A stretch of DNA of 44,555 nt from an uncultured Pseudomonadota bacterium (GCA_903844155.1 CAIMSU010000293.1:1-44555), one strand, 5' to 3'. Shown: positions 6,969 to 31,796, counted from the stretch's first letter. The notes: a model not told the origin generated them from the letters alone. Made by a program: numbers and translations.

Positions 6969-7945
6969 CGGGGCAGCGCGACCGCTGCGGCGATCTCGCG
7001 GACGATGGCGACCCGGTCAGCCCCGGCGTACCGCGCCCGCGTGTCGAGCATCAGGCGGTGGGCGAGGACGGGGACGGCGAGGCCGAGGACATCGTCAGGG
7101 ACGACAAAGTCCCGCCCCCGCGCCAACGCCCGGGCGCGGGACAGCCGGGCGAGGTGCTGGGCGCCGCGGGTCGAGACGCCCGTTCGCACGCTCGGATGTT
7201 GCCGTGTGGCCCGGATCAGCCTCACGATGTAGTCGGCGACGCTCTCCCCGAGCGCGACCCGGGAAACCGCGCGTTGCAGGTCGACGATCTGCTCCGGCGT
7301 CGCCACCGCCGCCAACGCCCCGGGCGCCGACCCGCGCTGCACCAGCGCCCGCTCGTCCTCCTCCGGCGCGTACCCAAGCGAGAGCTTCACAGCGAACCGG
7401 TCCAGCGAGGCCTCGGGCAGCGGGTACGTCCCGTGCAGATCCACCGGGTTCTGCGTGGCGATGCACAGGAACGGCGCGTTCAACGCCCGCGTTCGCCCCT
7501 CGACCGACACCTGCTGCTCCGCTAGCGCCTCCAGCAGCGCCGACTGCGTGCGTGGCGAGGCCCGGTTGATCTCGTCGGCGATGAGCACGTTGGTGAAGAT
7601 CGGCCCGCGCCGGAACCGGAATCGCCCGGTCTGCTGGTGGAACACGCTGCTGCCGATGATGTCGCCGGGCAGCAGATCGGGCGTGAACTGGATGCGCTTG
7701 AAGTCGCACCCGATGGCCTGCGCGAGCGACCGCGCCAGCGTCGTCTTGCCAGTCCCGGGGATGTCCTCGAGGAGCACGTGCCCCCCGGCCGCGCAGGCGG
7801 CGAGCACCAGATCGAGCACCTCGCGCTTGCCGCGGATGACGGTCTCGAGGCTGTCACGCAGCGCTCCGAGCAGAACGCGCGCGGCAGGTGCGTCCACGCC
7901 CCCGGCGGCCGGCGTGGGAGCGGGGTCGTTCACCACGATGGACAC
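6965..7945 (-). CDS. MoxR family AAA+ ATPase
   Basis: 326 aa from a GTG at 7945. The frame stays open to 8071, but those extra 42 codons translate the hairpin repeat at 8002-8032, so the shorter start is preferred. The Walker A motif is GTGKTT (residues 64-69) and Walker B is VLIADEIN (120-127). The sensor-1 region reads CIATQNPVDLHGTYPLPEASLDRF, in the typical MoxR form with an arginine finger after the second helix. MoxR proteins act as chaperone-like ATPases on vWA-containing partners. Here it heads the operon with DUF58 and transglutaminase genes, all joined by 4-nt overlaps, which suggests fixed stoichiometry. Confidence 0.93.
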   Translation of the reverse strand: MSIVVNDPAPTPAAGGVDAPAARVLLGALRDSLETVIRGKREVLDLVLAACAAGGHVLLEDIPGTGKTTLARSLAQAIGCDFKRIQFTPDLLPGDIIGSSVFHQQTGRFRFRRGPIFTNVLIADEINRASPRTQSALLEALAEQQVSVEGRTRALNAPFLCIATQNPVDLHGTYPLPEASLDRFAVKLSLGYAPEEDERALVQRGSAPGALAAVATPEQIVDLQRAVSRVALGESVADYIVRLIRATRQHPSVRTGVSTRGAQHLARLSRARALARGRDFVVPDDVLGLAVPVLAHRLMLDTRARYAGADRVAIVREIAAAVALPR

Positions 7946-8001
7946 CCGCTGATCGTAAGGACTCCGCCCGTCGCCGTCCACGCACGCCGTCCGGGCCAGC
8001 C

Positions 8002-8032
8002 TGCGAAAACGGACGACGTCACTTTTCGTACA
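8002..8032. repeat. intergenic hairpin element (GAAAA-GAC/GTC-TTTTC family), copy A
   Basis: The symmetric core is GAAAA-CG-GAC-GAC-GTC-AC-TTTTC, a quasi-palindrome with a 3-nt loop and one mispaired dinucleotide (CG against AC). It lies between the divergent moxR operon and the DTD-repeat lipoprotein gene. Confidence 0.8.
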
Positions 8033-8177
8033 CTGGGCTCCCTTCGCGCGACCGCGCCTCGCGGATCGCACTCTCGCCCTCGCCCGGCTAAACTCTCGGC
8101 GTTGCCCCGTCCGGCACGAAAATTGCTCAACAGGCGGGCGCTTGCCCCTACACGCACCTCACACCCCGGATTCCGCC

Positions 8178-8843
8178 ATGCACATCCTCGCCCTCTACGC
8201 CCTCTCCTCCCTCACCGGCTGCCGCTCGCACCACACCTCCGACTCGGCCGACACCAGCACCGGCGACACGGACACGGACACGGACTCCGACACGGACACC
8301 GACTCCGACACCGACACCGACACCAACAGCGACTCCGGCCACGGCGACACCGGCCGCGACACGGACACCGACAGCGGGCACGGCGACACGGGCCACGGCG
8401 ACTCGGGGCACGGCGACACCGGCAGCGACTCCGGACACAGCGACTCCGGCGGCGGCGACACCAGCACCACGGGCTGCACCGACCGCGACCTGACCTGGTC
8501 CGCCGAAGTGCGGAACTCGGCCGGCACCGTCGGCACGGTCTGGGCCCGCACGGACGACCTCTCCATCTACGGCATCGTGTCCAACACCTGCGCCTCGGAC
8601 GTCACTTTTCGGACGCGCTGCAGCAACACGATGTTGAGCTCGATCACCATCACGACCTCGTCGGGCATGGGCGAGGGCGTGGCGATGTCCTGCGACGGCA
8701 CAGCCACGGTGCGTACCGTGACGGCCGGCGGGTCGCTGGAGGAGGGCGTCGACATCGGCCGACAGGGCCTCGGCGACTACAGCTACGTCGTCACGTTCGA
8801 CGACCGCGGCGCGACCGCAAGCGGGGCGTTCAGCGTGGAGTAG
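8178..8843 (+). CDS. lipoprotein with Asp/Thr/Ser/His-Gly-rich linker
   Basis: 221 aa. ATG 8178 gives a short signal peptide ending in the lipobox LTGC (Cys15), so it should be a lipoprotein of the inner or outer membrane. Residues about 20-105 are low-complexity DTDTDS and GHGDTG/GHGDSG repeats, an extended acidic stalk. The remaining 115 residues (from CTDRDLTWSAEV) look like a single compact beta-rich domain that I cannot assign. The codon pattern of the stalk is a degenerate 6-bp microsatellite. A 14-nt match to the intergenic hairpin family lies within the gene at 8598-8611 (encoding DVTFR). Secretion and surface display are clear. Function is unknown. Confidence 0.8.
   Translation: MHILALYALSSLTGCRSHHTSDSADTSTGDTDTDTDSDTDTDSDTDTDTNSDSGHGDTGRDTDTDSGHGDTGHGDSGHGDTGSDSGHSDSGGGDTSTTGCTDRDLTWSAEVRNSAGTVGTVWARTDDLSIYGIVSNTCASDVTFRTRCSNTMLSSITITTSSGMGEGVAMSCDGTATVRTVTAGGSLEEGVDIGRQGLGDYSYVVTFDDRGATASGAFSVE
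8598..8611 (+). repeat. half-copy of the intergenic hairpin element inside a coding sequence
   Basis: GACGTCACTTTTCG matches exactly the right half of the elements at 8002-8032 and 15266-15340. It lies in frame within the DTD-repeat lipoprotein gene. Confidence 0.5.
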
Positions 8844-8865
8844 GGAATCCAGATAAGCTGCGGGG

Positions 8866-11097
8866 ATGCGACACAGTCCCGCCGTCATCCTGCTCCTGAG
8901 CCTCTCCGCCTGCACTGGCCACTCCGTCTCGGGCGACTCCGCCTCGGACGACACCGGCACGCCCGCGGCCGCCGTGTGGGATGATGGCGCCGCTGCCGTG
9001 GCGTGCACGCCCGGCGGCACCGCGCCGCTGCTTGACTCCGCGATGGAGAACGCCGGCATCGCCCGGACCGATTTCGGCTTCACGGACGCCCAGTGGAGCG
9101 CGTGGGGCGACGCCGTCCTCAACAAGTACGTGTTCTCCTGGTACACCACGGTCCACCACGACATGGAGCAGGTCCCCTGCTTTGCCGGGCAGATGCAGGC
9201 GGACGTCGACACGGCGATGGCCGCGAAGCACCCCGTCTCCTCCGCCATTGTCGCCTACGGTTCGCACCTGGACGTCACCTTCAGCGGCGACCCGCCCCAG
9301 AAGGGCATCGCGCTGGCCGACGCGCTCCTCAAGCTCCCCTCACCCGTCGAGGACCCGACCTCGTCGGCCGACACCCTGACAAGCATGGACCCCGATCTGA
9401 CCAACGCGATCGCGCCAATCATCTCGGCGATCGCGGACGCCATCGCCGTGCGCGCGACCATCGACGCAGAGGTCACCGCACAGGACTCCAAGCTCCCAAA
9501 ACACCTCTACAATTACGGCTCCGGCATGGTCCTGCAGGCGCCGTCCATCTCGCCCGACTACACGAGCACCGCCGAGATGAAGTGGTTCAGCAAGTGGTTC
9601 AAGTCCGACACCGGCCCACGTCAGGCCTTCGCGATCGCCGCGCGCGCCATCGCCTTCGCGGTCGAGGACGCTGACCTGAAGCGCTTCGCAGATTCCAGGG
9701 GCGTGAGCGCGGAGTGGACCTTCCACACCGCCGCCGGCGCCGTCCGCATCTCGCCTTCTACGGACGACACCCACGATGACAGCGATGGCGACACGCTCCT
9801 GCAGATCGATCTCGGCGGCAACGACACCTGGAACAGCAGCTCCGGGGCGACGAACAGCTTCTACAACCCCGTGTCCATCGCCATCGACCTCGCGGGCAAC
9901 GATGTCTATGGCTACGACGCCGTCGGCAGCGCGCAGGACCCGGCCGGGGCGCTGCCTTCGGACGCGGACGGGCGACAAAAGGTCAGCGGGTACTACATCT
10001 CTGCCTCAGAGAATGCGCGGCAGGGATCGGGTCGACTTGGGATTGGCATGCTGTTCGACCTGGGTGGCGGCAATGACACCTACACGTCGCTGCGCATGAG
10101 TCAGGGCTACGGGTCGTTCGGGGTTGGCGTGCTCTACGACGATGCTGGCGACGACGTCTACTCGGGAGAGGCTGGCGTACAAGGCGCGTCTGTCTTTGGG
10201 ATCGGGCTCCTGTTGGACGGCGGCGGGAATGACACCTACAACGCCTGGGCGTTCTCGCAGGGGTTCGGCTACTCCACCGGCGGTGGCCTGCTCGCGGATG
10301 AGGGCGCTGGCAACGACGTCTACTGGTCGGACCCGGGCAACAACTATGGCGGTTTGACCCTGTATGCGTCGCCGCAGCTCCCCAACGGCGAGGGCAACTC
10401 CTCGTTCACGCAAGGCGCAGGGTTTGGGTTGCGCGACGACAACGACCAGGTCTACATGGCCGGCGGGCTTGGGATGCTGCGGGATGGTGGCGGGGACGAC
10501 GTGTACACCGCCGGCGTGTTCGCCGAGGGCAGCGGATACTGGGAGGGAACCGGCCTTTTGGCGGACGCCTCCGGCAACGACACCTACGACATGCTGTACT
10601 ACGGCGAGGGTGGCGCCGCACACTTTGCGCTCGGCATCCTGGTGGACGGCGCCGGGGACGACCAGCACGGCACGCTGTTCACGCCCGACTACATGATGCT
10701 CGGCGCCGGCCACGACTACTCCGTTGGCGTGATGATCGACGAGTCCGGGAACGACACCGTTGTCGTCCCAGGGCTGGCGTTGGGTGCCAGCAATTGCCAG
10801 GGCCGTGGCGTGTACGTCGACAACGGCGGGTCCGACACGTACACAGTCGTCTCAACCTACTCCACCGGCCTCGGCAACCACTCGGGCGAGTGCGAGGTGC
10901 GCGAGAACGACGCGGATTCGAACGGCATCTTCATCGACGGCGGCGGGGATGCCGACGACTATCAGTGGCCTGCGGACGACACCGTGCGCCTGCCCGTCGA
11001 CAACTCAAGCTTCGGGTATGACTGGGACCAGACGCCCGATGAGCACGGCGGGGCGGTGGACGGCGATGGGGAGACGGGGTTTCACGCGGCTTATTGA
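8866..11097 (+). CDS. lipoprotein with about eleven GND-Y (Gly/Asp-rich) repeats
   Basis: 743 aa. The signal peptide ends in lipobox LSAC (Cys16), followed by a short Ser/Asp linker. Residues about 30-300 form a helical/mixed domain without a known family. From about 310 to 690 there are about eleven repeats of 26-40 residues of the form G-x-G-x-L-x-D-x-x-G-N-D-x-Y followed by a QG-x-G turn, with variants NDTW, NDVY, DDVY and SDTY. The pattern resembles Ca2+-binding beta-solenoid repeats such as RTX (GGxGxDxLx) but is not identical, because Tyr replaces the usual aliphatic residue. It is likely a surface-anchored, calcium-stabilised solenoid. The gene is 22 bp downstream of the previous lipoprotein gene and probably co-transcribed. 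Confidence 0.78.
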   Translation: MRHSPAVILLLSLSACTGHSVSGDSASDDTGTPAAAVWDDGAAAVACTPGGTAPLLDSAMENAGIARTDFGFTDAQWSAWGDAVLNKYVFSWYTTVHHDMEQVPCFAGQMQADVDTAMAAKHPVSSAIVAYGSHLDVTFSGDPPQKGIALADALLKLPSPVEDPTSSADTLTSMDPDLTNAIAPIISAIADAIAVRATIDAEVTAQDSKLPKHLYNYGSGMVLQAPSISPDYTSTAEMKWFSKWFKSDTGPRQAFAIAARAIAFAVEDADLKRFADSRGVSAEWTFHTAAGAVRISPSTDDTHDDSDGDTLLQIDLGGNDTWNSSSGATNSFYNPVSIAIDLAGNDVYGYDAVGSAQDPAGALPSDADGRQKVSGYYISASENARQGSGRLGIGMLFDLGGGNDTYTSLRMSQGYGSFGVGVLYDDAGDDVYSGEAGVQGASVFGIGLLLDGGGNDTYNAWAFSQGFGYSTGGGLLADEGAGNDVYWSDPGNNYGGLTLYASPQLPNGEGNSSFTQGAGFGLRDDNDQVYMAGGLGMLRDGGGDDVYTAGVFAEGSGYWEGTGLLADASGNDTYDMLYYGEGGAAHFALGILVDGAGDDQHGTLFTPDYMMLGAGHDYSVGVMIDESGNDTVVVPGLALGASNCQGRGVYVDNGGSDTYTVVSTYSTGLGNHSGECEVRENDADSNGIFIDGGGDADDYQWPADDTVRLPVDNSSFGYDWDQTPDEHGGAVDGDGETGFHAAY

Positions 11098-15265: not shown

Positions 15266-15340
15266 ATCCATCAAAACCGACGACGTCACTTTTCGTACAT
15301 CGTGGATGTGCGAAAAGTGACGTCGTCGGTTTTCATACAT
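15266..15340. repeat. 75-bp inverted pair of hairpin elements, copy C
   Basis: Two units of the element (15266-15301 and 15305-15340) face each other across a 3-nt GTG loop. The 36-nt arms are identical at 32 positions, with a 23-nt uninterrupted match. Each arm contains GACGACGTCACTTTTC. The paired, head-to-head arrangement is like the BIME arrangement of REP sequences. It lies between the GH18 stop and the PilT-fusion start, ending 34 bp before the latter. Confidence 0.88.
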
Positions 15341-15374
15341 GGGCGTGGCTACCGGAAGTTTGATAGCCGTGCCC

Positions 15375-17318
15375 ATGAAAACCGTACCGTTGGAAGGCGA
15401 AACCCTTCGTCGCACCCTCGCCAGCCTCGCGACCGCGCCTATGTTCCGCGGCCTCACCCCGGACCAGCTCTCGCAGGTCGCGTCGCACGCGACTTATTGC
15501 CTGTTCGAGGACGGTGAAACGCTGATGGAGCAGGGCGCGCCGAGCGATTCGTTCTTCGTCCTGCTGACCGGCGCCGTGTCGGTGCGCGTAGCCACCGGGG
15601 ACGGGGAGCCGCAGGAGGTCGCCGCGCTCCCGCCGGTCACCACGATCGGCGAGATCGGCCTGCTCCTGGAGCACCCACGCGGGGCCTCCGCGGTCGCCAC
15701 CCGACCCAGCGACGCCGTCCGGTTCGACGCGAAGATCTTCTCAGCGATGATCCAGCGGATCCCCGCGTTCGGGCTTGGACTGTGCCGCGTGCTCGCCGAG
15801 CGGGTGGGTTCGAGCAACCTCCCCGCGCGCCTGCCGCTCACCGACGACCAGGAGCCGGACGAGATCGCGATGGAGATGCTGCCCGTCGAGATCCTCCAGC
15901 GCTTCCAGATGCTGCCGATGGAGGTCACCGGAAATGTACTGACGATGGGCTTTGTCGACGATCCGAGCCCGACCGCGCTGGCGGCGATCCGTCTGAACGC
16001 GCCTGGGATGGAGCTGCAGACCGTCCGGATCCAGCGCTCCTTGCTCGAGCGCGTGCTCGGTGTGCACGCGAGCGTGGAGGGCTGGTCTGGGGCCGCCGGG
16101 GCGAGGGCGTCGATGGTGCCGGGGGTGACGCCAGCGCCGGCGACAGCGCCAGGCGCGACCACGCTGGGCCGGATCGGGACGACCAAAATGCTGGTCGAAG
16201 CCGCAGCGCGCACGTCGATGGTCCCCGCTTCCGCGGCGGCGCCTGTGGAGTCCCGGTCCCCTCGCCTCGACGCGCTCCTCAAGCGCATGGTCGCTGAAGG
16301 CGCCTCCGACCTCCATCTTTCGGGCGGCCAACGCCCCCGCTGGCGCATCGACGGCGAGATCCACGAGCTCTCGGACACCATGCCGCTCAGCGCCGAGGAG
16401 GTTCGGGAGCTGCTCGAACCGCTCATGCTCGACCGCAACCGGGAGGAGTACGCCCGCGACAACGACACCGATTTTGCCTACGCCCTGCCCGGCACCGCGC
16501 GCTTCCGCACCAACGTGTTCCGGGACCACCACGGCGCCGGCGCCGTCCTCCGCCAGATCCCGGACAAGATCCTCTCTTTTGAGCAGCTCGGCCTCCCGCC
16601 GGCGGCCAAGGCCATGTGCGAGCACCCGAAGGGCCTCGTGCTCGTGACGGGGCCGACGGGCAGCGGCAAATCGACCACGCTCGCGGCGATGATCGACTTC
16701 ATCAACAAGAACAAGAAGGCGCACATCATCACGCTCGAGGACCCCATCGAGTTCGTGCACGAGAGCCGCATGTCGCTGGTGAACCAGCGCGAGGTCGGCG
16801 CGCACACGACCAGCTTCGCTCGCGCGCTCAAGGCGGCGTTGCGCGAGGACCCGGACATCGTGCTCGTCGGCGAGATGCGCGATCTGGAGACCGTGAACCT
16901 GGCGTTGGAGACCGCGAATACGGGCCACCTCGTGTTCGGCACGCTGCACACATCCACGGCGATGAGCACGGTGGATCGCATCGTGAACCTGTTCCGCGCC
17001 GAACAGCAGACGCAGGTGCGGGCAACGCTCGCAGACGTCCTGCGCGGGGTCATCGCCCAGACGCTCTGCCGGAAGATCGGCGGCGGCCGAATCGCGGCGT
17101 TGGAGGTGCTGGTCTCAAGCCTCGCCATCGCCAACCTGATCCGGGAAGGAAAGACCAACCAGATCCCGACGTCGATGTCGACAGCGCGGGCGGCCGGCAA
17201 CCAGGTCCTGAACGAGGAGCTGGCGAGGCTGGTGCTGACGAAGAAGGTCGAGGCGAACGAGGCGCTGTTGAAGGCGGTGGACAAGCCGGATTTGTACCGG
17301 CGGATCGGGGGGGCGTGA
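15375..17318 (+). CDS. PilT-type retraction ATPase fused to N-terminal cNMP-binding and MshEN-like domains
   Basis: 647 aa from ATG 15375 (an upstream in-frame GTG at 15339 lies within the hairpin repeat). Residues about 15-140 are a cyclic-nucleotide-binding domain (GETLMEQGAPSDSFFVLLTG, then TIGEIGLLLEHPRGASAVAT). Residues about 165-230 resemble the MshEN/GspE N-terminal domain that binds c-di-GMP in some type IV pilus ATPases. From about 295 there is a complete PilT/VirB11-class ATPase: Walker A GPTGSGKST (426-434), Asp box TLEDPIEF, Walker B DIVLVGEMRDLET and His box GTLHTSTAMSTVD. LCRKIGGGRIAALEVL and NLIREGKTNQIPT are PilT rather than PilB features. The usual PilT is about 350 aa, so this one carries an extra regulatory half. 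It probably powers pilus retraction under cyclic nucleotide control. Confidence 0.9.
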   Translation: MKTVPLEGETLRRTLASLATAPMFRGLTPDQLSQVASHATYCLFEDGETLMEQGAPSDSFFVLLTGAVSVRVATGDGEPQEVAALPPVTTIGEIGLLLEHPRGASAVATRPSDAVRFDAKIFSAMIQRIPAFGLGLCRVLAERVGSSNLPARLPLTDDQEPDEIAMEMLPVEILQRFQMLPMEVTGNVLTMGFVDDPSPTALAAIRLNAPGMELQTVRIQRSLLERVLGVHASVEGWSGAAGARASMVPGVTPAPATAPGATTLGRIGTTKMLVEAAARTSMVPASAAAPVESRSPRLDALLKRMVAEGASDLHLSGGQRPRWRIDGEIHELSDTMPLSAEEVRELLEPLMLDRNREEYARDNDTDFAYALPGTARFRTNVFRDHHGAGAVLRQIPDKILSFEQLGLPPAAKAMCEHPKGLVLVTGPTGSGKSTTLAAMIDFINKNKKAHIITLEDPIEFVHESRMSLVNQREVGAHTTSFARALKAALREDPDIVLVGEMRDLETVNLALETANTGHLVFGTLHTSTAMSTVDRIVNLFRAEQQTQVRATLADVLRGVIAQTLCRKIGGGRIAALEVLVSSLAIANLIREGKTNQIPTSMSTARAAGNQVLNEELARLVLTKKVEANEALLKAVDKPDLYRRIGGA

Positions 17319-19832: not shown

Positions 19833-20024
19833 TCAGACGAACCCCTTCGGCCGCAGCTCGAACATCGCGCCCATCAGCGCGTTGAACGCCTCCTGGTCGT
19901 CCTCGATGTCGTCGATGTTGTCGATGCACGCGAGCACATCCGCGATCGGGTGATCGCCAAGGGTGTGCAGGGCGTCCTCGCGCGCGATGATCGCGGCGGC
20001 GAGCGTGGCATCGAGCTTGTACAT
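19833..20024 (-). CDS. small acidic hypothetical protein (63 aa)
   Basis: Begins with ATG 20024. Third codon positions are nearly all G or C and the composition is regular (DNIDDIEDDQEAFNALMG in the middle), both arguing for a real gene. It has no signal peptide or membrane segment and is predicted helical. It sits between two plus-strand genes and 102 bp from the divergent cNMP-EAL start. No family recognised. Confidence 0.6.
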   Translation of the reverse strand: MYKLDATLAAAIIAREDALHTLGDHPIADVLACIDNIDDIEDDQEAFNALMGAMFELRPKGFV

Positions 20025-20125
20025 GGGAGTCCGGGGTGCGAGGGTCGGCGCGTGCTGATGCCACGGGGCGTATGCCGTCCGTCATCCGCTGGCGTGGCTG
20101 GACGCTGCGACATACTCTGCAGCAC

Positions 20126-21328
20126 ATGGCGAATCGTGTCATCCTCGCAGCGGGCGAATGCCTTTTCCGGCAGGGAGAAGACGGCAAGGACGGGTTCATC
20201 ATCGTCCACGGCAAGGTCCGGATCACCGCCGTTCGGCACGGCGAGGAGAAGGAGATCGGCGTGCTCGGCCCCGGCGAGATGGTGGGCGAGCTCGCGATCA
20301 TCGACGGTGGGCCGCGAACCGCCACCGCCACGGCCATCGAGCTGACGGAGCTCTCGCAAGTCACGGACGGCCAGCTCGCCGAGCGCATCGCCAAGGCAGA
20401 CCCGGTCGTCTCGCTGCTGATCCGCCAGGTCATCCGGCACCTGCGCCGGGAGATCCATGATTTTGCGCTGCCGCTGGAGCAGCAGCCCAACCCGACGATG
20501 GAGCGCATGCGGCTGGAGGGTGAGCTCGCGTGGGCCGTGGATCGGCAGGAGCTGGAGTTGTGGTACCAGCCGATCGTGGATCTGGAGTCGCACACGGTCG
20601 CCGGGTTCGAGGGGCTGGTTCGCTGGCGGCACCCCACGCGTGGGCTGGTCTCGCCCGCGGAATTCATCCCGTTGGCCGAGGAGAGCGGGCTCATCGTGCC
20701 CATCGGCACCTGGGTCATGCAGGAAGGCGCGCGCGCGCTCAAGCACATCGACGACACGCTGGCGGACGGCCAATCGCGCTTCATGAGCGTGAACGTGTCG
20801 GGCCTGCAGCTCGACGCAACGGGCTTTCTCGAAGAGGCGCAGCAGGCGGTCCACAGCGCCAACATCGCGCCCGAGCGCTTCCACTTGGAGATGACCGAGG
20901 GCATCCTGATCCAGAGCCTCCGCGCCCGCGAGACCGTGATCGCTTGTGAGAACTACGGCTTTGGCCTCTTCCTCGACGACTTCGGCACCGGCTACTCGTC
21001 CCTCGCCTACCTGAACGAGCTCCCGTTCGACGCCCTGAAGATCGACCACTCCTTCGCCCGAAAGCTCGACGACGACGGTCACGGCCTCAAGCTCATCCGC
21101 GCCATCGTCGGCCTGGCCACGACGCTTGGCCACGGCGTCGTGATGGAGGGGGTGGAGAGCGCCCGCCAGCGCGACGTCTTCCGGGCCATGGGCGGTCGCC
21201 TCGCGCAGGGCTACCTGTTCTCCAAGCCCCGCCCGATGCCCGACCTGCTGCAGCTCATGCGGTCCACGCACACGCTTCCCTGGGGTGCGCCGATTGAACG
21301 CCGAATGCCGTCGATGTTTCCGGTCTGA
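20126..21328 (+). CDS. cNMP-binding domain - EAL domain protein (putative cyclic-nucleotide-regulated c-di-GMP phosphodiesterase)
   Basis: 400 aa from ATG 20126; the upstream 30 in-frame codons lack family similarity. Residues about 1-115 are a CRP-type beta roll (AAGECLFRQGEDGKDGFIIVHG, with cassette GELAIIDGGPRTATA). Residues about 130-390 are an EAL domain: FEGLVRW (Glu162, EGL instead of EAL), FHLEMTEG, LDDFGTGYSSL, ALKIDHSFA, VVMEGVES and QGYLFSKP. The metal- and base-contacting residues are present, so it should hydrolyse c-di-GMP. The N-terminal domain would make that dependent on cAMP or a similar ligand. It lacks a membrane anchor. Confidence 0.88.
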   Translation: MANRVILAAGECLFRQGEDGKDGFIIVHGKVRITAVRHGEEKEIGVLGPGEMVGELAIIDGGPRTATATAIELTELSQVTDGQLAERIAKADPVVSLLIRQVIRHLRREIHDFALPLEQQPNPTMERMRLEGELAWAVDRQELELWYQPIVDLESHTVAGFEGLVRWRHPTRGLVSPAEFIPLAEESGLIVPIGTWVMQEGARALKHIDDTLADGQSRFMSVNVSGLQLDATGFLEEAQQAVHSANIAPERFHLEMTEGILIQSLRARETVIACENYGFGLFLDDFGTGYSSLAYLNELPFDALKIDHSFARKLDDDGHGLKLIRAIVGLATTLGHGVVMEGVESARQRDVFRAMGGRLAQGYLFSKPRPMPDLLQLMRSTHTLPWGAPIERRMPSMFPV

Positions 21329-24400: not shown

Positions 24401-25562
24401 ACCGGGCGGCCAGGTTCATCGTCGGCCCCAGCCCACCATAGTCCCGTCGCTGGGGCGCCCCGAGCAGCCCCACGAACAACCGCCCCGTCGCCACGCCCGT
24501 CGACGATGGGCACTCCGCCTGCATCGTCGCCACCGCTCGCACTGCACGCGCTGCGTCGTCGCCGTGCGCCCGCCCCGGGAGGCCGAACGCGCCGATCAGC
24601 GTCGCCCCCTTCTCGTCCATCACCACGCCGAGGCAGTCGCCCTCAAAGTGCGCGAGGATGTCCACGCGACGGCTCACCTCCGCCTGCAGGACGGAGGGGT
24701 CGATGGCGCCGCCCGAGCCGACGGGGAGCGTGACGAAGCAGATGGTCGCGGTGCGGAACTCGTCCACCCAGGCGGCCTGACCGGCGTTGCCACGCTCGAC
24801 GATCACGCGCGGCAACCAGGCGCGCAGCGTGAGGGCGTCGAGGGTCGCCGGCGTCGGGACGCGAAGGCCGGGGCGGGGACGAGGCAGCTCGTCCATCAGC
24901 GCGAAGGTGCCGCCGGCCCGCTTCGCGCCAAGCAGGGTGACGAGCCCGCTTGCAGCCGCAGAAAGCACGATCTCGCCTGGCTGCGCCGCGCTGTGGGGAA
25001 GCTGCAATTGGGCGACGGCTGCGCCTCCGAGCACGTGGATCCCGCGCTCCCCCTCGCCGGCCAGCGCCCACATCGTCAGCTCGCCGGCGCCGATGGACAT
25101 GCGCTGCTTCAGGCCGGTCGGCGGGCGGGCCTGAACCGCTCGGGCGCACGCGATCGCGGCCTCCAACGCCCCGGTCCGCCCGAGATAGTCGCTGTCGAAG
25201 AACGCGACCAGGACGGCGTCGCCCGCGAACGCTGCGGCGTCACCGCCCCAGGCGTCGACCTCCTCGAGGATGCCCCCGAAGTGCGCGTCGAGCACGGAGC
25301 GGAGCTGCTCCGCACCTTCGGGACCGGCGCTCGCGTACTGGTCCGTGAGCGCCGTGAATCCAACGAGATCGATGAACAGCGTGGCGCCGCTGGCCGTCCA
25401 GGCGCGTGGCAGGTCGACCACCTCGCCAGCCGCCAGCCGTCGAGCGAGCCAGCGCGGGACGAACGTGATCGCCGCCTCCACGCCTGCCTCCGAGGGGAAC
25501 GGGAAGCCGAGGGTTCGTCGTGGGGACGACGGAGCGGTCAGCGAAGGGTGAACAGGGGGCAC
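21447..25562 (-). CDS. tandem class III cyclase - AAA/NACHT-like ATPase - TPR protein (soluble adenylyl cyclase type)
   Basis: 1371 aa from GTG 25562. A start at 25622 would overlap the divergent gene. The first cyclase domain (about 45-230) has metal ligands D65 in LFIDLVGF and D115 in FAGDAVLVAFF. The second (about 255-415) lacks an aspartate at the first position (TICFVTLPVG) but keeps YGGLGPTMNLAARLM. This pairing of one complete and one degenerate domain is like mammalian sAC (ADCY10) and related bacterial proteins. An ATPase module follows with Walker A GEPGIGKSS (about 471-480) and Walker B LLVLDDVHWLD. After that come about 600 residues of alpha-helical TPR-like repeats. The Ala-rich C-terminus matches the gene's very high GC. 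It probably makes cAMP under control of protein partners sensed by the TPR part. Confidence 0.88.
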   Translation of the reverse strand: MPPVHPSLTAPSSPRRTLGFPFPSEAGVEAAITFVPRWLARRLAAGEVVDLPRAWTASGATLFIDLVGFTALTDQYASAGPEGAEQLRSVLDAHFGGILEEVDAWGGDAAAFAGDAVLVAFFDSDYLGRTGALEAAIACARAVQARPPTGLKQRMSIGAGELTMWALAGEGERGIHVLGGAAVAQLQLPHSAAQPGEIVLSAAASGLVTLLGAKRAGGTFALMDELPRPRPGLRVPTPATLDALTLRAWLPRVIVERGNAGQAAWVDEFRTATICFVTLPVGSGGAIDPSVLQAEVSRRVDILAHFEGDCLGVVMDEKGATLIGAFGLPGRAHGDDAARAVRAVATMQAECPSSTGVATGRLFVGLLGAPQRRDYGGLGPTMNLAARLMGKADDGVLVDEITRRAAEPRVAFEALGTVRVKGVPEPIAVYAPCAEAVRGPVIAAAPMLGRAAERGDLLARMERGTLRSVVIGEPGIGKSSLLTSVMTEARARGVRVLYGEGGAIERFTPWHAWKAILSALVAGRSAEAVLSSLGDPDLAARASLLDGLWPLTVPTNAVVEQMESAARAAAIRAIVVQLLVSALAAPVRASLAPLHGGGRARVLLVLDDVHWLDTASVSVAREVLARVPGLNVLLGTRPLGAGAPPELTRLVDGEGLDRVALGAMSEPEVVELVGRTLGVALVPSGLGAFIYNRSGGHPFYSEQLALALRDAGVVTVEDHGTGAVCEFDGAGAVSTLPATVEGVVTARIDALAPGAQLTAKVASVIGRVFPEGSVQAIYPVQGEAAELPQWLGQLAAQELILPEAGTLWGFKHAITQEVAYNLLLFAQRRELHRRAAEYYGTTPDGQWPTLAWHWEHAGASAEALDALEHAAVDAFREHANTEGIAFLDRARALVANPDGVETAPDGPMGGGDGGAGGTTARKKPFLLRAQRARWLPALAGVSMDRLALWETLSGTARLKLAAYPQARDHFRRALDRLGTPVPATTLGVGLDLLVGCLQLTRRLIFGVRRPEDSDQRSRLRAAAEAHQGLAEVAYFSLDLPGLLHADVHAINAAERAGEPREIAIACASGAIGAGIGGLYRLGWRWNAQALAAARETGHLPTIAYVNLLSSVFTNTVGACTVAAGTNAEATALFLQLGDAFRASSSLCGEAFGAIAAGDVLAARRFVGRARVLAPREGALQVMVWCAVVDVLLALLAGEGVARAVADVEARLAQDPHHAERILALGALAGGRRALGDAAGALAPARDVVRLASVSPPTNWFALWPLAEAVETIRLAGQAGTATAAEVRAATKALRTFAGMCALAGPRADLAEAAGMREGAARRRRERALGRARELGLPWDVALCEVALRMPAGEAGIARLQEAARGAIGAGV

Positions 25563-25615
25563 GGGCGGCCATCCTACCAGACCGGGCGTGCTACCTTCCG
25601 GACCCGGAGGCCTGC

Positions 25616-28579
25616 ATGGCACTGAAAGTGGCGATCCTCGGTGGTGGGCCGGGCGGCCTTGCGACGGCGTTGGAGCTCACGGACCCGGCGCGGGCCGGCC
25701 AGTTTGACGTGACGGTCTACGTTCAGGGCGGGCGCCTTGGCGGAAAATGCGCGTCGAGCCGCAACCCGGCCGTCGGCAACCGCAACGAGGAGCACGGGCT
25801 CCACGTCTGGTTCGGCTGCTACGAGAACGCCTTTGGCGTGATGGACCGGGTCTACAAGGCGCACCCCTCCCCGCCCTACCCGAGCATCCACGACGCCTTT
25901 TTCGCCCGACCCTACACGGTGCTCGGCAAGGGCACCTCCGCGGACCCCGACCGCTGGGACGTGGTCTTCCCGCCGCTCCCCGGCGTCCCCGGCGACGGCA
26001 CGCCCATCCGCACCCCGCACGACGTCGTCGGCTTTGTGCTACAAACCCTCCACGACATGCTCCGGGAGCTGATCCGCACCGCCCGCGCCTCGCACCCGGA
26101 CCCTCTCACGGCAACGCTGCTCTTTGACGCAGAGATGTACCTGCGCGCCGAAGCAGCCGTCCTCCACACGCTCCCCGTCGCGAAGATCGCCGACTTCCTG
26201 CTCGATCAGGCCGCGCGAGGCCCGCTCACGCTCGTCGACACGCTCGCCAACCGCTTCGCCCACGTGCTGACCCTGCTCGTAGGCGGGATCCCGGGGGTCG
26301 CCAAGGCCGTCGCAGCCCTGGACATCGGCTTTGCCGTGCTCCAGGGACTGCTCGACCCGCGCGACAAGGCGCTCGCAACGCAGGACCTCGATGTGCTCGA
26401 CCAGTACGAGTTCACCGACTGGCTGCGCGCGCATGGCTGTCGGCAGTCCAGCCTGGACTCCGCCTTCGTGCGGGCGGTGTACGAGTGCATGTTCGAATAC
26501 ACGGATGGAGACCGTAAAAAGCCGAGCTACGCGGCTGGTGTTGCCCTGCGCGCCATGCTCCGCATCGGCATCACCTACAAGGGTGAGGTGCTCTACCTGC
26601 CCGTCGCCGGGTTCGGCGAGCTGATCATTGCGCCCATCTACGAGGTCCTCAAGGCCCGCGGCGTACACTTCGAGTTCTTCCATCGCGTCACCCGGATCGA
26701 TCCGGACCCCGCCGGCCGCAACGTCGCGCGCGTGACGATGTCGCGGCAGGTCGACCTGGTCAGCGCCGAGTACCTGCCCCTCCACCCGATCCCGGGAACG
26801 ACGATGAAGGGGTGGCACGCCGAGCCCGACTGGGCGCAGATCGTCGGCGGAAAACCGGGGACGGTGCCTGATTTTGAGTCCTGGTGGGAGCCCGCCTCGG
26901 TCGGAACCGAGACATTGAACGCCGGCGCGGACTTTGACCGGATCGTCCTCGCGATCCCGGTGACTGCGCTGCGGGATCTCGCGGCACCGCTGGTCGCCGT
27001 CCAGCCAGCATGGGGCGAGATGATCGCGGCGATGCCCGGAGTGCCGAACGTGGCGATGCAGCTCTGGATGGACGAGACCATCCTCGACCTTGGGTGGAGC
27101 CGAGCGCCGGCGTTGGACGCGGGACCTGTGCCCTTCGACGTCTGGACGGACATGTCCGACTCCCTGCATTGTGAGGGATGGTCAGCCGCTGACGCCCCGA
27201 AGTCCGTGCACTACCTGTGTGGCGTCATCGAGACCGACCTGCACTTGCGTCCGCAAACGGCGGTCACGACGCCTGCCGAGGCCCACGCGCTCGGGCGCAA
27301 CGCGGCGATCGCCTTCCTGGAGACCGATGCCTACGGACTCTGGCCGAAAACCTACGCGCCCGGCAAGGTTTTTCGCTGGGACACCCTGCACGCACCCGCC
27401 GGCGTGGTCGCGCAGCGGCGCATCGACCACCAGTACGTGCGCGTGAACGTGGACCCAAGCGAGGTCACCCACGCTTCCCCGGCGAATTCGACGGTGCGGC
27501 GCTTCTACGCTGGTAATTGCGGGTTCGACAACATGGTGTGCGCGGGGGATTGGGTACGGAACGGGCTGAACTCGGCGGCGGTCGAGGCAGCGTTCATGGG
27601 TGGGCGCCAGGCGGCACGGGCGCTGTACGGCGGAACCGAGGAGATCCCTGGGGAGTTCTGGATGTCCAGGCCTCCCGCACACCTCGCGGGCATCGGCGCG
27701 GCGGCGGTTGGGCTGGAGTACCGGTCGCGGATCGGGCGCGGGGAGCAGGCGATGCCGGCGCCGGGGGTGATGAAGGCCGCGGAGATGGCTGTGTTCGTCG
27801 TGAAGGGTGACGAGGCGGAGGCGCAAAAGCTCGTCGACACCTACCTGAACGGGCCAGCGGGCCGAGGGACAAGTGACCCGAACCGGTATGTCGTCTTGAG
27901 CGGGGACGTGATGGTCTCGTTCATGGACGCGAAGATGACCAGTGGCGGGGCGGAGGTCGGCTGGCTGCCGGACCGGGAGTGCGCGGTGTGGATTGCGCTG
28001 AAGTCGGCGGGGAAAGTGTTGTTCTGGATGCCGTACATCGTGGTCGATACGTCGATCGCGATGGTGACGGGGCGCGAGGTGTGGGGGTTTGCGAAGGAGG
28101 TTGGCCGGGTGGCCATTGCGCCGACCGCCTGGACGGCGTTCGCGACCACCTTCAATCCGCTGTCGAGCGCAACGCAGGGTAGCGAGGGGGCGATCGTGAG
28201 CGCCACCCAGGTGACGGCGCCGGGGTTGCTTGGGACCCTGCTCGCCGACGCGAGCGCGATCCTCGGGGCGACCGGCCACGTCATCGACGAGCTGTTCGGT
28301 GTCCCCGAGCCATTGGTCGTCAACCTCAAGCAATTCCGCGACGCTGCCCAGCCTGGGAAGGCGTGCTACCAATCGCTGGTCGAGAGCCGGTTCCACATCG
28401 AGAACCTCGCCAACGCGAAGCTGATGGCGGGGGGGTATGAGATCGCGTTTCCGTCGCACGCCAGCCACACGATCGCGCGGGATCTTGGGTTGCCAACGGT
28501 CGCGCCTGTGATCGCGGCGTTTCGGCTGAACATGGACTTTTCGGCTTTGCTCGGTGTTGAAGTCTGGCGGGGGATGTGA
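25616..28579 (+). CDS. FAD-dependent amine oxidase/phytoene-desaturase-like protein fused to acetoacetate-decarboxylase-like domain
   Basis: 987 aa. Residues 1-40 hold the dinucleotide-binding motif VAILGGGPGGLATALEL, followed by YVQGGRLGGKCASSRN and EEHGLHVWFGCYENAF, the pattern of the carotenoid desaturase/HpnE-like amine oxidase family. The matching C-terminal FAD motif is NCGFDNMVCAGDWVRNGLNSAAVEAAF, ending at about residue 690. Residues about 715-985 are a second module with TGREVWGFAKEVGRV, the core motif of acetoacetate-decarboxylase-like proteins. The order oxidoreductase-then-ADC-like suggests sequential steps on one small lipid or polyketide-like substrate. The substrate cannot be named. 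The gene is divergent from the sAC-like gene with a 53-bp spacer. Confidence 0.82.
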   Translation: MALKVAILGGGPGGLATALELTDPARAGQFDVTVYVQGGRLGGKCASSRNPAVGNRNEEHGLHVWFGCYENAFGVMDRVYKAHPSPPYPSIHDAFFARPYTVLGKGTSADPDRWDVVFPPLPGVPGDGTPIRTPHDVVGFVLQTLHDMLRELIRTARASHPDPLTATLLFDAEMYLRAEAAVLHTLPVAKIADFLLDQAARGPLTLVDTLANRFAHVLTLLVGGIPGVAKAVAALDIGFAVLQGLLDPRDKALATQDLDVLDQYEFTDWLRAHGCRQSSLDSAFVRAVYECMFEYTDGDRKKPSYAAGVALRAMLRIGITYKGEVLYLPVAGFGELIIAPIYEVLKARGVHFEFFHRVTRIDPDPAGRNVARVTMSRQVDLVSAEYLPLHPIPGTTMKGWHAEPDWAQIVGGKPGTVPDFESWWEPASVGTETLNAGADFDRIVLAIPVTALRDLAAPLVAVQPAWGEMIAAMPGVPNVAMQLWMDETILDLGWSRAPALDAGPVPFDVWTDMSDSLHCEGWSAADAPKSVHYLCGVIETDLHLRPQTAVTTPAEAHALGRNAAIAFLETDAYGLWPKTYAPGKVFRWDTLHAPAGVVAQRRIDHQYVRVNVDPSEVTHASPANSTVRRFYAGNCGFDNMVCAGDWVRNGLNSAAVEAAFMGGRQAARALYGGTEEIPGEFWMSRPPAHLAGIGAAAVGLEYRSRIGRGEQAMPAPGVMKAAEMAVFVVKGDEAEAQKLVDTYLNGPAGRGTSDPNRYVVLSGDVMVSFMDAKMTSGGAEVGWLPDRECAVWIALKSAGKVLFWMPYIVVDTSIAMVTGREVWGFAKEVGRVAIAPTAWTAFATTFNPLSSATQGSEGAIVSATQVTAPGLLGTLLADASAILGATGHVIDELFGVPEPLVVNLKQFRDAAQPGKACYQSLVESRFHIENLANAKLMAGGYEIAFPSHASHTIARDLGLPTVAPVIAAFRLNMDFSALLGVEVWRGM

Positions 28580-28583
28580 GCGC

Positions 28584-29903
28584 CTAGCCGAGCATTCCCG
28601 AAAATCGCATGTCCGCCGCCGTTGGCCCAAACCCTCGCACCGCGACCTCCAGGCCCGTGCGTCGGGCGACCAGGTCGAGAAACGCGTCGCTGTCTACATT
28701 CTCGTAGATGGGTTGCACCGCGGCAAGCGCCTGCGTCCGGCGCGACTGCCGGTCGAGGTCGGGCGAATCGATGACGTGTGAGAGTGCCAACGCGTTGTCG
28801 TAGGCGACGCAAACTCTCCACGGGTCACGGATGGCGTCGAGGTGCGTAAGCGCGAGGACGTCGATGGCGCCGGCGGGATCGAGGCGACAGACGTCGAGGG
28901 CGTAGCGGAGCAGGGGAAGGTCGAACCAGCCGTGACGGACGCGACCTTGCCAGGGGTCGGTGGTGTTGTGGGGCTCGGGGAGCGTGAGCGCCGCATCTTC
29001 GGTTGGGAGAGGGCCGGCACCGTGGCGGACGGCGTAGCTCCGGAGGACACCGACGCCGAGCGACGGGCCGGAAAAGCCCGCTTTCGTCAGCATGCTCACC
29101 GCGTGTCTGCTGGTGCACGTGCTCCAGGTCGTGTGGGGATGGAAGCCGTGCCACTCGTCCAGCAGCACACCCTGGGCGCCCTCGAAAACTGTCGTCCCAG
29201 GCTGGTTCAGCACGGCAGCGACCTCGTCGTCGCCCACAACCTCGACCTGCTCGATCACCGCCCTCGCCGCCTGCAGCCAGCGGTCCGCGAGGCCCGGATC
29301 CCCAAACACGTCGCCCTCCGGCCCCCGCACCCCCTCGCCCAGTCGCTCGCGAAGATCCCCCAGCCGTCGCCGCGTCTTTCCATCCCCTCCGGCTCGCAGA
29401 TCCCGCACCCTCAGCGCTCCCTCCGGATGCTCGAGCGCGTCCCTCGCCGTCTCCCCCACACCCACCCCACAGCTCCCGTGCCGCCCCGACCCCCTCGCCC
29501 GCTCCCGCGCACGATTGGCCGCCTGGTGAAACGGCGTGATGACCAGCGCATCCTCGTGAACCTGCATCCGGTCGAGCGCGTCCGGCACGCCCACGTCCGC
29601 GAGGTGTCGCGCCTCCACCCCGAGCGCTGTCGGATGCACGATGACCGCCGGGCCAAGCAACGTCCGCACGCCGTCAACAAACGCACCCGCTCCAACCTGC
29701 GAAAAGCAGTGGTGTCGCCCGTCCCCGGTCACGACGTTGTGCCCCGCTTGCGCGCCGCCGTTGTAGCGGACGATGGTACGGGCCCGATACCGTCGCACCA
29801 GCGCGTCTGTCAGCGCACCCTTGCCAGCGTCGCCAAACGCAAGATCAACGACGATGATCGCTCGCGGGCCTGGGTCCGTCAGGTCCCAAGCAACCGCTTC
29901 CAC
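28584..29903 (-). CDS. divergent adenylosuccinate synthetase (PurA)-like protein
   Basis: 439 aa from GTG 29903, overlapping the vWA gene by 25 nt. PurA landmarks are altered but present: FGDAGKG (24-29, for WGDEGKG), VRYNGGAQAGHNVV with His55 (for NAGHT), TVFEGAQGVLLDEWHG, RHGAGPLPTE, GWFDLPLLRYA and LTHLD (for TKLD). The stretch corresponding to the TGRGIGPAY loop reads HGSCGVGVGET. The usual GTP/IMP ligase reaction of PurA may therefore be changed. Being third in an operon with a pseudokinase and a vWA protein, and not near purine genes, it is unlikely to be the housekeeping enzyme. The PurZ type (2-aminoadenine phages) is not supported because the catalytic Asp (D25) is kept. Confidence 0.8.
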   Translation of the reverse strand: MEAVAWDLTDPGPRAIIVVDLAFGDAGKGALTDALVRRYRARTIVRYNGGAQAGHNVVTGDGRHHCFSQVGAGAFVDGVRTLLGPAVIVHPTALGVEARHLADVGVPDALDRMQVHEDALVITPFHQAANRARERARGSGRHGSCGVGVGETARDALEHPEGALRVRDLRAGGDGKTRRRLGDLRERLGEGVRGPEGDVFGDPGLADRWLQAARAVIEQVEVVGDDEVAAVLNQPGTTVFEGAQGVLLDEWHGFHPHTTWSTCTSRHAVSMLTKAGFSGPSLGVGVLRSYAVRHGAGPLPTEDAALTLPEPHNTTDPWQGRVRHGWFDLPLLRYALDVCRLDPAGAIDVLALTHLDAIRDPWRVCVAYDNALALSHVIDSPDLDRQSRRTQALAAVQPIYENVDSDAFLDLVARRTGLEVAVRGFGPTAADMRFSGMLG

Positions 29904-30871
29904 CAGCTCCCCCCGCCATCCCCAGGGTTCGGCCCCGGATGCGCCTTCGGCGGCTTCGGATCGGGCGCCCCGTCGCGCCGCAACGACGCCGCATAGGGCG
30001 TCAACGCGCGCATCACCGCAGGCAGCCGCTCGGGCGACGCACCAGCGCTCAAGAGGACGGGACCGAGCGCGGCGATGTCCTTCACCAGACCCTCTCCCAG
30101 CGCCACCGCCCCGGCCGCAACGATACATGTATCGCTTGCATCTTCCATCACGATCACGTGGTCACCGAGCAGATCGCGCCAGTGCCGCTCGCAGCGCTGC
30201 GCCCGAGCGAGGTCCGGGATCAAAAAGAACGGCTCGAACGACACCTGCACCGCTGCGACGACAGCGTCGGTCGGGATGTCCTCGTCCGCCCGGTCGCCAA
30301 AGATCCGTTCGAGGTGTCCGCGGGCGACGGAGTTGTAGGAGAGCTCATCGCCCGTCAGGAACGCGTAGCCGCGCTTGTGCCGCTTCTCCCAGCAATCCAT
30401 GGCGGTGTGCTCGGCCAGGAAGTACAGGGCCAGCTCATATGACTCCTCGCCGCTGCCACCGCCGCCGCGCTCGATGAAGCTCGACGTCAACCACTTGTCC
30501 ATCAGCTCGGCGGTGCTCTCGAACTGCCCGACTTGCAACGGCGCATTGTCGCTGTTCGCGTCCCCCACCGCGACGAACATCACCTGCGGGTCGACCACGC
30601 CGCACTGCGTGAGCGCCTTCATGAACTTTGGGAGCTCCTGGCGCGCAAGCTGCTCGGGGATGTCGCCCATCGAACCAGTCACATCCAGCGCGAAGGCGAT
30701 GCCCAGGGAATTGGGGTGGTCGACGGAGTCCCGGCACTCACGGAGGCGGACCCCGTGCGGATTCATCAGGGGGTGACACGAGGATTGCCGGAACACCTCC
30801 TCGCGCGGCGCTCGGGCGCGGGCGTTGGTGAGCGCAGCGTGCGCCTCGTGGCTGTACATGCCATTACCCAT
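29879..30871 (-). CDS. vWA (MIDAS) domain protein in kinase/PurA-like operon
   Basis: 330 aa from ATG 30871. The start lies 8 nt inside the upstream kinase gene, with GGAG upstream. After a 55-residue N-terminal extension (Cys-rich: SSCHP, RECRD), a von Willebrand A domain begins with FALDVTGSMGDI, carrying the metal-dependent adhesion site D63-x-T65-x-S67. A Gly-rich GGGGSGEESYE loop and FLTGDEL supply the later MIDAS positions. The C-terminus is Pro/Gly-rich with a WWKRLLGT end. There is no signal peptide, so it is cytoplasmic. It likely forms a complex with the neighbouring gene products. No family name is claimed beyond vWA. Confidence 0.82.
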   Translation of the reverse strand: MGNGMYSHEAHAALTNARARAPREEVFRQSSCHPLMNPHGVRLRECRDSVDHPNSLGIAFALDVTGSMGDIPEQLARQELPKFMKALTQCGVVDPQVMFVAVGDANSDNAPLQVGQFESTAELMDKWLTSSFIERGGGGSGEESYELALYFLAEHTAMDCWEKRHKRGYAFLTGDELSYNSVARGHLERIFGDRADEDIPTDAVVAAVQVSFEPFFLIPDLARAQRCERHWRDLLGDHVIVMEDASDTCIVAAGAVALGEGLVKDIAALGPVLLSAGASPERLPAVMRALTPYAASLRRDGAPDPKPPKAHPGPNPGDGGGSWWKRLLGT

Positions 30872-31796
30872 AGGACGACTCCGGAGAAAGTGCCGGCCAA
30901 CCCGGCATGTGGAACGGGACGAAGGAAGGGGGACCATACAGATCGCGGGCGGCTGCGGACACGCGACGGGAGAGGACGAAGGGGTCGACGGTGCCGGGAT
31001 CGTCGAGGAGCGCCTGAAGCGGAGCGGGCGCTGCGCTGACAAGCACGTGGCGGACGGCGTCCGCGGTGCGGGCGAGGTCGTCTGCGGCGCCGCGCGGGGT
31101 CAGCGCGGCGGCCCGGGTCCACCCAACCACGCGCACGCCATGGTCCGGCGCGTGGACGAGCAGGTGCCCCGGCTCGATGTTTCCATGCGTCCAACCGGCG
31201 GCGTGGACCCAACCGAGCGACTCCAGGATTCGACGCCACAGCCAGACCGCGTGTCGCGGCCCGACGCCCAGTGGATACGCAGCTTTGACGTCGTCGAACG
31301 TGTGGACGAACCCGCTGGGGTACCGGTACATGGTCACCCAGCGGCCGTCGCCCGGCGCCAGCCTCCCTCGCAGCACCGGCTGGGGCAAGCGTCGAAAAAA
31401 CTCCGGTGCGCCCTGTGCATCGCTCCGCGAGAGCGCCGTCAGCGCCTGCCACTCCGTCACCTGCCGGGCAATGTCGCCACCGTCGCGCAGCACCTTGACC
31501 ACCACCGTCTCCGTCAGCCTTCGCGCCCGCTGGGCCTGCACAACATCGTGATCCTCGCCGGTCCCCAGCGGGCCGATGACCCGGAACGCCGCGTCGCCCA
31601 CGGTCAGCGGACCCACGGCGCCGGAGAGCCCCTCGGCCTCGTACGCTGCCTTCGTCGACCGGTAGTCCGCCGCCCGCACCAGTCGCTGCTCGTTGGTGAC
31701 CGTCGACCCGCAGAACGGGCATACAACCGTGATCCATCGCGCGTGGCGTGGGAGCGTCCCCGCGCAGGATGGGCAGTTCACGGCGACGAGCGACAT
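30864..31796 (-). CDS. zinc-ribbon pseudokinase (Ser/Thr kinase-like)
   Basis: 310 aa from ATG 31796; a longer reading would cross the divergent lipoprotein gene. Residues 8-29 form a zinc ribbon (Cys8-x2-Cys11, Cys26-x2-Cys29). A protein-kinase fold follows: GPLGTGEDHDVV as a glycine loop, Lys101 in VVVKVL and Glu115 in the alphaC position. The catalytic loop, however, reads HGNIEPGHLLV (His204-Gly-Asn206) instead of HRDxxxxN, and the DFG position reads VGW (224-226). Phosphotransfer is therefore doubtful, and a scaffolding or nucleotide-sensing role is more likely. It heads the operon and overlaps the vWA gene by 8 nt. Confidence 0.8.
   Translation of the reverse strand: MSLVAVNCPSCAGTLPRHARWITVVCPFCGSTVTNEQRLVRAADYRSTKAAYEAEGLSGAVGPLTVGDAAFRVIGPLGTGEDHDVVQAQRARRLTETVVVKVLRDGGDIARQVTEWQALTALSRSDAQGAPEFFRRLPQPVLRGRLAPGDGRWVTMYRYPSGFVHTFDDVKAAYPLGVGPRHAVWLWRRILESLGWVHAAGWTHGNIEPGHLLVHAPDHGVRVVGWTRAAALTPRGAADDLARTADAVRHVLVSAAPAPLQALLDDPGTVDPFVLSRRVSAAARDLYGPPSFVPFHMPGWPALSPESSYG

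Follow-up and report, generated by a model that had tools for sequence, protein, structure and literature searches.

The locus at positions 28584–31796 of the window, the whole 44,555-nucleotide stretch of DNA analysed here, raises the question of why genes for a zinc-ribbon pseudokinase, a MIDAS vWA protein and a relative of the purine enzyme PurA should overlap in one operon, and whether this combination belongs to a system that already has a name.

Operon organization

All three genes, and the features within them described below, lie on the minus strand. Gene 1 (30864..31796, ATG start) encodes the zinc-ribbon pseudokinase of 310 residues, recognized by its kinase fold, and gene 2 (29879..30871, ATG start) encodes the MIDAS vWA protein of 330 residues, assigned from its fold model and MIDAS residues. 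Gene 3 (28584..29903) encodes a PurA-like protein, a predicted GTP-dependent ligase of 439 residues assigned from PF00709; its GTG start at 29903 is the closest one on the 5′ side of the conserved core, further in-frame upstream starts being possible. With these ATG, ATG and GTG starts, the open reading frames overlap by 8 nt (kinase and vWA) and by 25 nt (vWA and PurA-like), in agreement with the original prediction of a co-translated operon.

The match of PF00709 to the PurA-like protein (193 bits) is the sole strong family match among the three proteins. Searches of Pfam, NCBIfam and PADLOC gave no match to the vWA protein, and a literature search limited to open-licence papers found no description of the trio. 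As had been supposed from the window sequence, the combination carries no name in the libraries searched.

The pseudokinase and the vWA protein

The kinase fold of the gene 1 product is indicated by a profile match to kinases and by an AlphaFold2 model (pLDDT 86) that matches PknB and other kinases. The N-terminal zinc ribbon (Cys8, Cys11, Cys26 and Cys29; 31710..31775) has each cysteine in 77 of 80 homologues, and of the ATP-site residues, Lys101 is retained in 76 and Glu115 in 77 of the 80. The catalytic loop is degenerate (HGNIEPGH, residues 204–211; 31164..31187), with the Asn of HRDxxxxN replaced by His in 77/80, and at the DFG position the Asp is replaced by Gly225 (31122..31124), a substitution found in 76/80. 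The HRD Asp is variable in the family, several Variovorax members retaining HRD. Judged from these sequences, the gene 1 family is a pseudokinase family in which both metal-binding residues are replaced, as originally proposed; phage and more distant kinase members retain one or both of them. A J-like domain (weak Pfam matches, with an HPD motif in the sequences) takes the place of the zinc ribbon in phage, Agrobacterium and some Myxococcota relatives.

The model of the vWA protein (pLDDT 85) matches integrin beta and vWA domains. The MIDAS recognized in the initial reading of the locus is essentially invariant: in the DVTGS motif (residues 63–67; 30671..30685) Asp63 and Ser67 are found in 32/32 sequences and Thr65 in 29/32, being otherwise Ser, and Glu143 (30443..30445) and Asp175 of a GDE motif (30347..30349), to which MIDAS roles are putatively assigned, are both present in 32/32. 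Glu143 occupies what we take to be the position of the MIDAS Glu of integrin beta. A second vWA clade carries an inserted beta-rich segment (L045, 8290–9747; L046, 7294–8757; L047, 3095–4498); two of these cases adjoin a kinase with an extra N-terminal domain, and a PurA-like gene is not always adjacent.

Conservation in bacteria, plasmids and phages

Of 187 related genomes, just 21 contain relatives of the vWA protein, which marks the gene as accessory; around these relatives the trio is found repeatedly with its gene order unchanged, and the rest of the flanks is little conserved. A scan of genome contigs with the single protein gave no relatives, and a family alignment was required. A wider scan with the vWA family alignment yielded 489 relatives among the candidates, the best 79 loci of which were examined. 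At 74 of these 79 the genes lie on one strand in the order kinase, vWA, PurA-like, and because the loci were picked by the vWA gene alone, the recovery of both partners in the same order indicates more than a chance association. Three of the five exceptional loci are truncated at contig ends, and the PurA-like gene is absent nearby at L059 and L071. Spacing is tight: the PurA-like gene in most cases overlaps the vWA gene or lies less than 20 nt from it. The hosts of the 79 loci include Myxococcota, Betaproteobacteria (among them Variovorax, Massilia, Duganella and Accumulibacter), Verrucomicrobia, Chloroflexi, Planctomycetes, Acidobacteria and Fibrobacteres. At seven loci (L035, L039, L059, L066, L067, L123 and L125) the vWA gene is duplicated inside the operon or directly after it.

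The trio is also present on plasmids of Rhodococcus, Tsukamurella, Agrobacterium, Acetobacter and Variovorax. Cluster C mycobacteriophages carry the module, phage Tonenili in the order kinase, vWA, PurA-like, and the PurA-like protein matches 189 Mycobacterium phage records; in Vibrio and Rhizobium phages the vWA and PurA-like genes are adjacent. Uncultured contigs with viral status as assigned by IMG/VR hold 460 vWA relatives, and among the best 80 of these a PurA-like gene is close by in 78 and a detectable kinase in 57. Gene order and strand are conserved among the phage loci as well. The few loci without a PurA-like gene nearby, together with the phages without a detectable kinase, suggest that parts of the module are separable.

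Recurrence of the trio in other genomes, on which the original prediction hinged, is thus very wide, and the three genes constitute one functional module, as yet unnamed. A gene order fixed over many phyla, plasmids and large phages leads one to expect a useful function for a module whose name is absent from the libraries searched.

Comparison with vWA-centred systems

The TerY-P triad consists of a vWA protein, a PP2C phosphatase and a kinase with a C-terminal zinc ribbon or OB fold (PMC11090510), and resembles the present locus in that a mobile operon pairs a stand-alone vWA protein with a kinase-fold protein bearing a zinc ribbon. In the trio, however, the ribbon is N-terminal, the metal-binding residues of the kinase are replaced (77/80 and 76/80) and the third gene is PurA-like at 74 of 79 loci, whereas that of TerY-P encodes PP2C; no PP2C was seen among the annotated neighbours of the trio. 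The VMAP and iSTAND vWA–MoxR ternary conflict systems are likewise vWA-centred three-gene operons in which inactive kinase domains occur (PMC7159879), but the trio has no conserved MoxR AAA+ ATPase, VMAP, iSTAND or variable effector. An AAA gene lies downstream of the Agrobacterium locus and is not general among the loci. Membership of a TerY-P or VMAP family, the alternative recognized at the outset, was rejected: the libraries gave no such match, neither PP2C nor MoxR was seen as a conserved partner, the ribbon is N-terminal and catalytic kinase residues are replaced. ADP-ribosylglycohydrolase systems combine NrtR-type regulators with vWA proteins (PMC9503650) and are similar in their NrtR-like Nudix regulator and vWA protein; the trio differs in its PurA-like protein and pseudokinase, and no ADP-ribosylglycohydrolase or phosphatase was found as a conserved neighbour.

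Family position and active site of the PurA-like protein

The gene 3 product had been described as a divergent PurA paralogue, with profile comparison against PurA and PurZ proposed as the check. Despite its match to PF00709, it falls far below both NCBIfam PurA cut-offs (159 versus 402 bits and 134 versus 396 bits) and below the curated PurZ cut-off (61 versus 300 bits), and the description is upheld. A canonical PurA elsewhere in the same myxobacterial genome scores 593 bits and is 31% identical to it. In a quick tree with one support measure, 46 operon-linked PurA-like sequences of bacterial, plasmid and phage origin are split from 12 canonical PurA sequences by a branch with 100% support, and phage and bacterial PurA-like members are interleaved.

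Positions follow E. coli PurA numbering, with roles taken from published PurA and PurZ structures (PMC8342488) and, in part, from background on the E. coli enzyme. The protein shares with PurA the fold family, the P-loop, the catalytic Asp, His, Lys and Gln and the guanine-recognizing Asp. The phosphate loop FGDAGKG (29817..29837), with catalytic D13 and K16, is invariant in bacterial, plasmid and phage members, as are H41 (the catalytic His55 of this protein; 29739..29741) and Q224; D333, involved in GTP base recognition (Asp356; 28836..28838), is nearly so and is present in 80/80 sequences of one set. In contrast, the IMP/aspartate pocket is replaced or lost at N38, T129, R143, T300, T301 and R303. 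The changes N38 to Gln, T129 to Cys, V273 to His and T301 to Gln occur in nearly every member, bacterial and phage alike, T300 is replaced by Trp (Trp or Phe in phages), and R143 and R303 are not kept across the clade. In the window, Cys145 stands in place of T129 in the IMP phosphate loop (29469..29471; Cys in 80/80 and, in a separate set, in 21/21 bacterial or plasmid and 22/25 phage sequences), His294 in place of V273 (29022..29024; invariant in the clade), and PWQG in place of the aspartate-binding loop ATTG (28944..28955; Gln invariant, Trp in 78/80, with Trp or Phe in phages).

The retained residues are those with which PurA activates the 6-oxygen of purines by means of GTP, and the set that has taken the place of the IMP-phosphate and aspartate residues is just as conserved. 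Because the phosphotransfer residues are kept and the pocket residues are swapped alike in bacteria and phages, we predict the protein to be an active ligase that uses GTP and acts on other substrates. The pattern can be read as an intact GTP-driven activation step combined with acceptor and nucleophile sites that would be re-specified, identically in phage and host. The residue mapping thus predicts a substrate choice different from that of PurA and PurZ, and these residue predictions make the substrates directly testable by assay.

PurZ and PurZ0 (phage 2-aminoadenylosuccinate synthetase) are likewise phage-borne PurA paralogues with altered substrate choice. The catalytic Asp is Ser in all phage PurZ members (PMC12884076) and the tip of the aspartate loop is conserved and Thr-containing (PMC8342488), whereas the PurA-like clade has Asp in 46/46 members and a WQ or FQ tip; it is also tied to the kinase and vWA genes, not to the Z-DNA gene set of PurZ, and is common on bacterial chromosomes. 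Identity with PurZ was rejected on the retained Asp, the loop tip and the profile score. The clade suggests that a core purine enzyme has been re-specified another time besides PurZ, here coupled to signalling-type proteins. At L135 (5857–7185) and in about 190 Mycobacterium phage records the PurA-like protein is labelled '2-aminooxy adenylosuccinate synthetase', the PurZ activity; since the catalytic Asp is kept and PurZ features are absent, this label is probably wrong.

Neighbouring genes

An NrtR-type regulator (Nudix-like domain and NrtR winged helix), assigned in some cases by sequence similarity only, lies next to the trio in Massilia, Janthinobacterium, Rhodococcus, Tsukamurella, Agrobacterium and Acetobacter, as well as on phage contigs L176 and L188. 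On L176, a 416-kb phage, genes for the regulator, the vWA protein, a NadM-like protein (its Nudix part confirmed by Pfam), NAMPT, the PurA-like protein and the kinase form one run (4228–10599); on L188, NAMPT lies between the regulator and the vWA gene. NrtR proteins sense ADP-ribose (PMC9503650). The NrtR and NAD-salvage neighbours are suggestive of NAD/nucleotide metabolism and, with the retained phosphotransfer residues, lend indirect support to the nucleotide link originally proposed. Linkage to NrtR or an NAD gene is seen at about one-tenth of the loci, most having neither nearby, so the NAD link may apply to just part of the family. In a Rhizobium phage the annotated NAD salvage genes upstream of the module were rejected as such, Pfam identifying them as PRTase_3, HAD-like (a weak match) and Nudix genes. 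At a Massilia locus (L082, 4282–6022) an NrtR-type regulator and a presumably SPFH-like gene precede the trio, the latter being confined to Massilia within the locus set.

Functional implications

The reading that we tentatively prefer, while placing it somewhat short of an even chance, is that the module contains a purine-nucleotide ligase that depends on GTP, takes substrates different from those of PurA, is gated by a pseudokinase–vWA scaffold and is tied to NAD/nucleotide status. In joining its two substrates, of which the nucleophile would not be free aspartate and the purine nucleotide not plain IMP, the ligase would make or repair a purine-nucleotide metabolite, possibly of NAD type. 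The pseudokinase and MIDAS vWA protein would together act as a regulatory scaffold of chaperone-like character, holding a protein partner and gating the ligase, the zinc ribbon or J-like domain of the pseudokinase acting as sensor or recruiter. Nucleotide status might act as the switch of the module, given that several lineages have regulators of the ADP-ribose-sensing NrtR family next to it, and both bacteria and phages may use the module in stress or phage–host conflict. This preferred reading would also give a function to a gene of about 190 sequenced mycobacteriophages that is now probably misnamed PurZ. A bolder form of it, possible yet rather doubtful, makes the PurA-like clade a third branch of the PurA enzymes, distinct from PurA and PurZ, which would have as its substrate an NAD-type or otherwise extended purine nucleotide, or else a protein held by the vWA domain, would be gated by the pseudokinase and would serve bacteria and large phages in NAD/nucleotide-centred stress or conflict.

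The protein could instead be an auxiliary adenylosuccinate synthetase that boosts AMP supply under regulation by the kinase and vWA pair. The common fold family and intact phosphotransfer residues are consistent with this, phages often carry purine genes, and in three metagenome-assembled genomes the PurA-like protein is present and canonical PurA was not seen, which may reflect incompleteness or replacement of PurA by the PurA-like protein. However, most trio genomes also hold a canonical PurA, Thr300/301, Arg303, Thr129 and Arg143 are lost, several with conserved replacements, and no PurB-like gene was found near the trio with E. coli PurB as the sole query, which other PurB types may escape; an auxiliary PurA is therefore considered unlikely.

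No greater likelihood is given to an anti-phage or phage anti-defence module that alters or restores nucleotide or NAD pools. Its occurrence in phages and on plasmids, its sparse distribution (21/187 related genomes) and the NAMPT, NadM-like and NrtR neighbours would fit such a role. Against it, the PADLOC 2023 defence profiles matched neither the vWA nor the PurA-like protein and gave just weak generic kinase matches to the pseudokinase, the flanks checked yielded no defence genes, and the effector is conserved, not variable; a role confined strictly to one side is made less likely by an active site that is the same in phages and hosts. In the window the flanks look housekeeping-type, with PADLOC matches mainly to common cyclic-nucleotide-binding domains. 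The stress or phage-defence role floated in the original prediction thus gains no support as regards defence, and since phages as well as bacteria carry the module it may serve either side.

Modification of a protein, in which the vWA domain holds a peptide whose amine takes the place of aspartate and becomes linked to the 6-position of a purine nucleotide, is improbable: the rebuilt aspartate pocket would be explained and peptide handling would be in keeping with vWA and pseudokinase/J-domain partners, but the altered phosphate pocket would not be accounted for, and we know of no such modification. Supply of a DNA base modification, as PurZ provides for 2-aminoadenine, would agree with the annotation of the phage copies but is very improbable and was rejected, mainly on the catalytic Asp retained in all PurA-like members where all phage PurZ have Ser (PMC12884076), and also on the WQ or FQ loop tip in place of the Thr-containing one (PMC8342488), the low PurZ profile score and the many copies on bacterial chromosomes.

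Convergent with the trio, the window encodes a fusion of flavin amine oxidase-like and acetoacetate decarboxylase-like domains (25520–28579). Further away, cyclic-nucleotide-binding domains are fused to an EAL domain (19991–21325) and to a type II/IV secretion ATPase (15321–17315).
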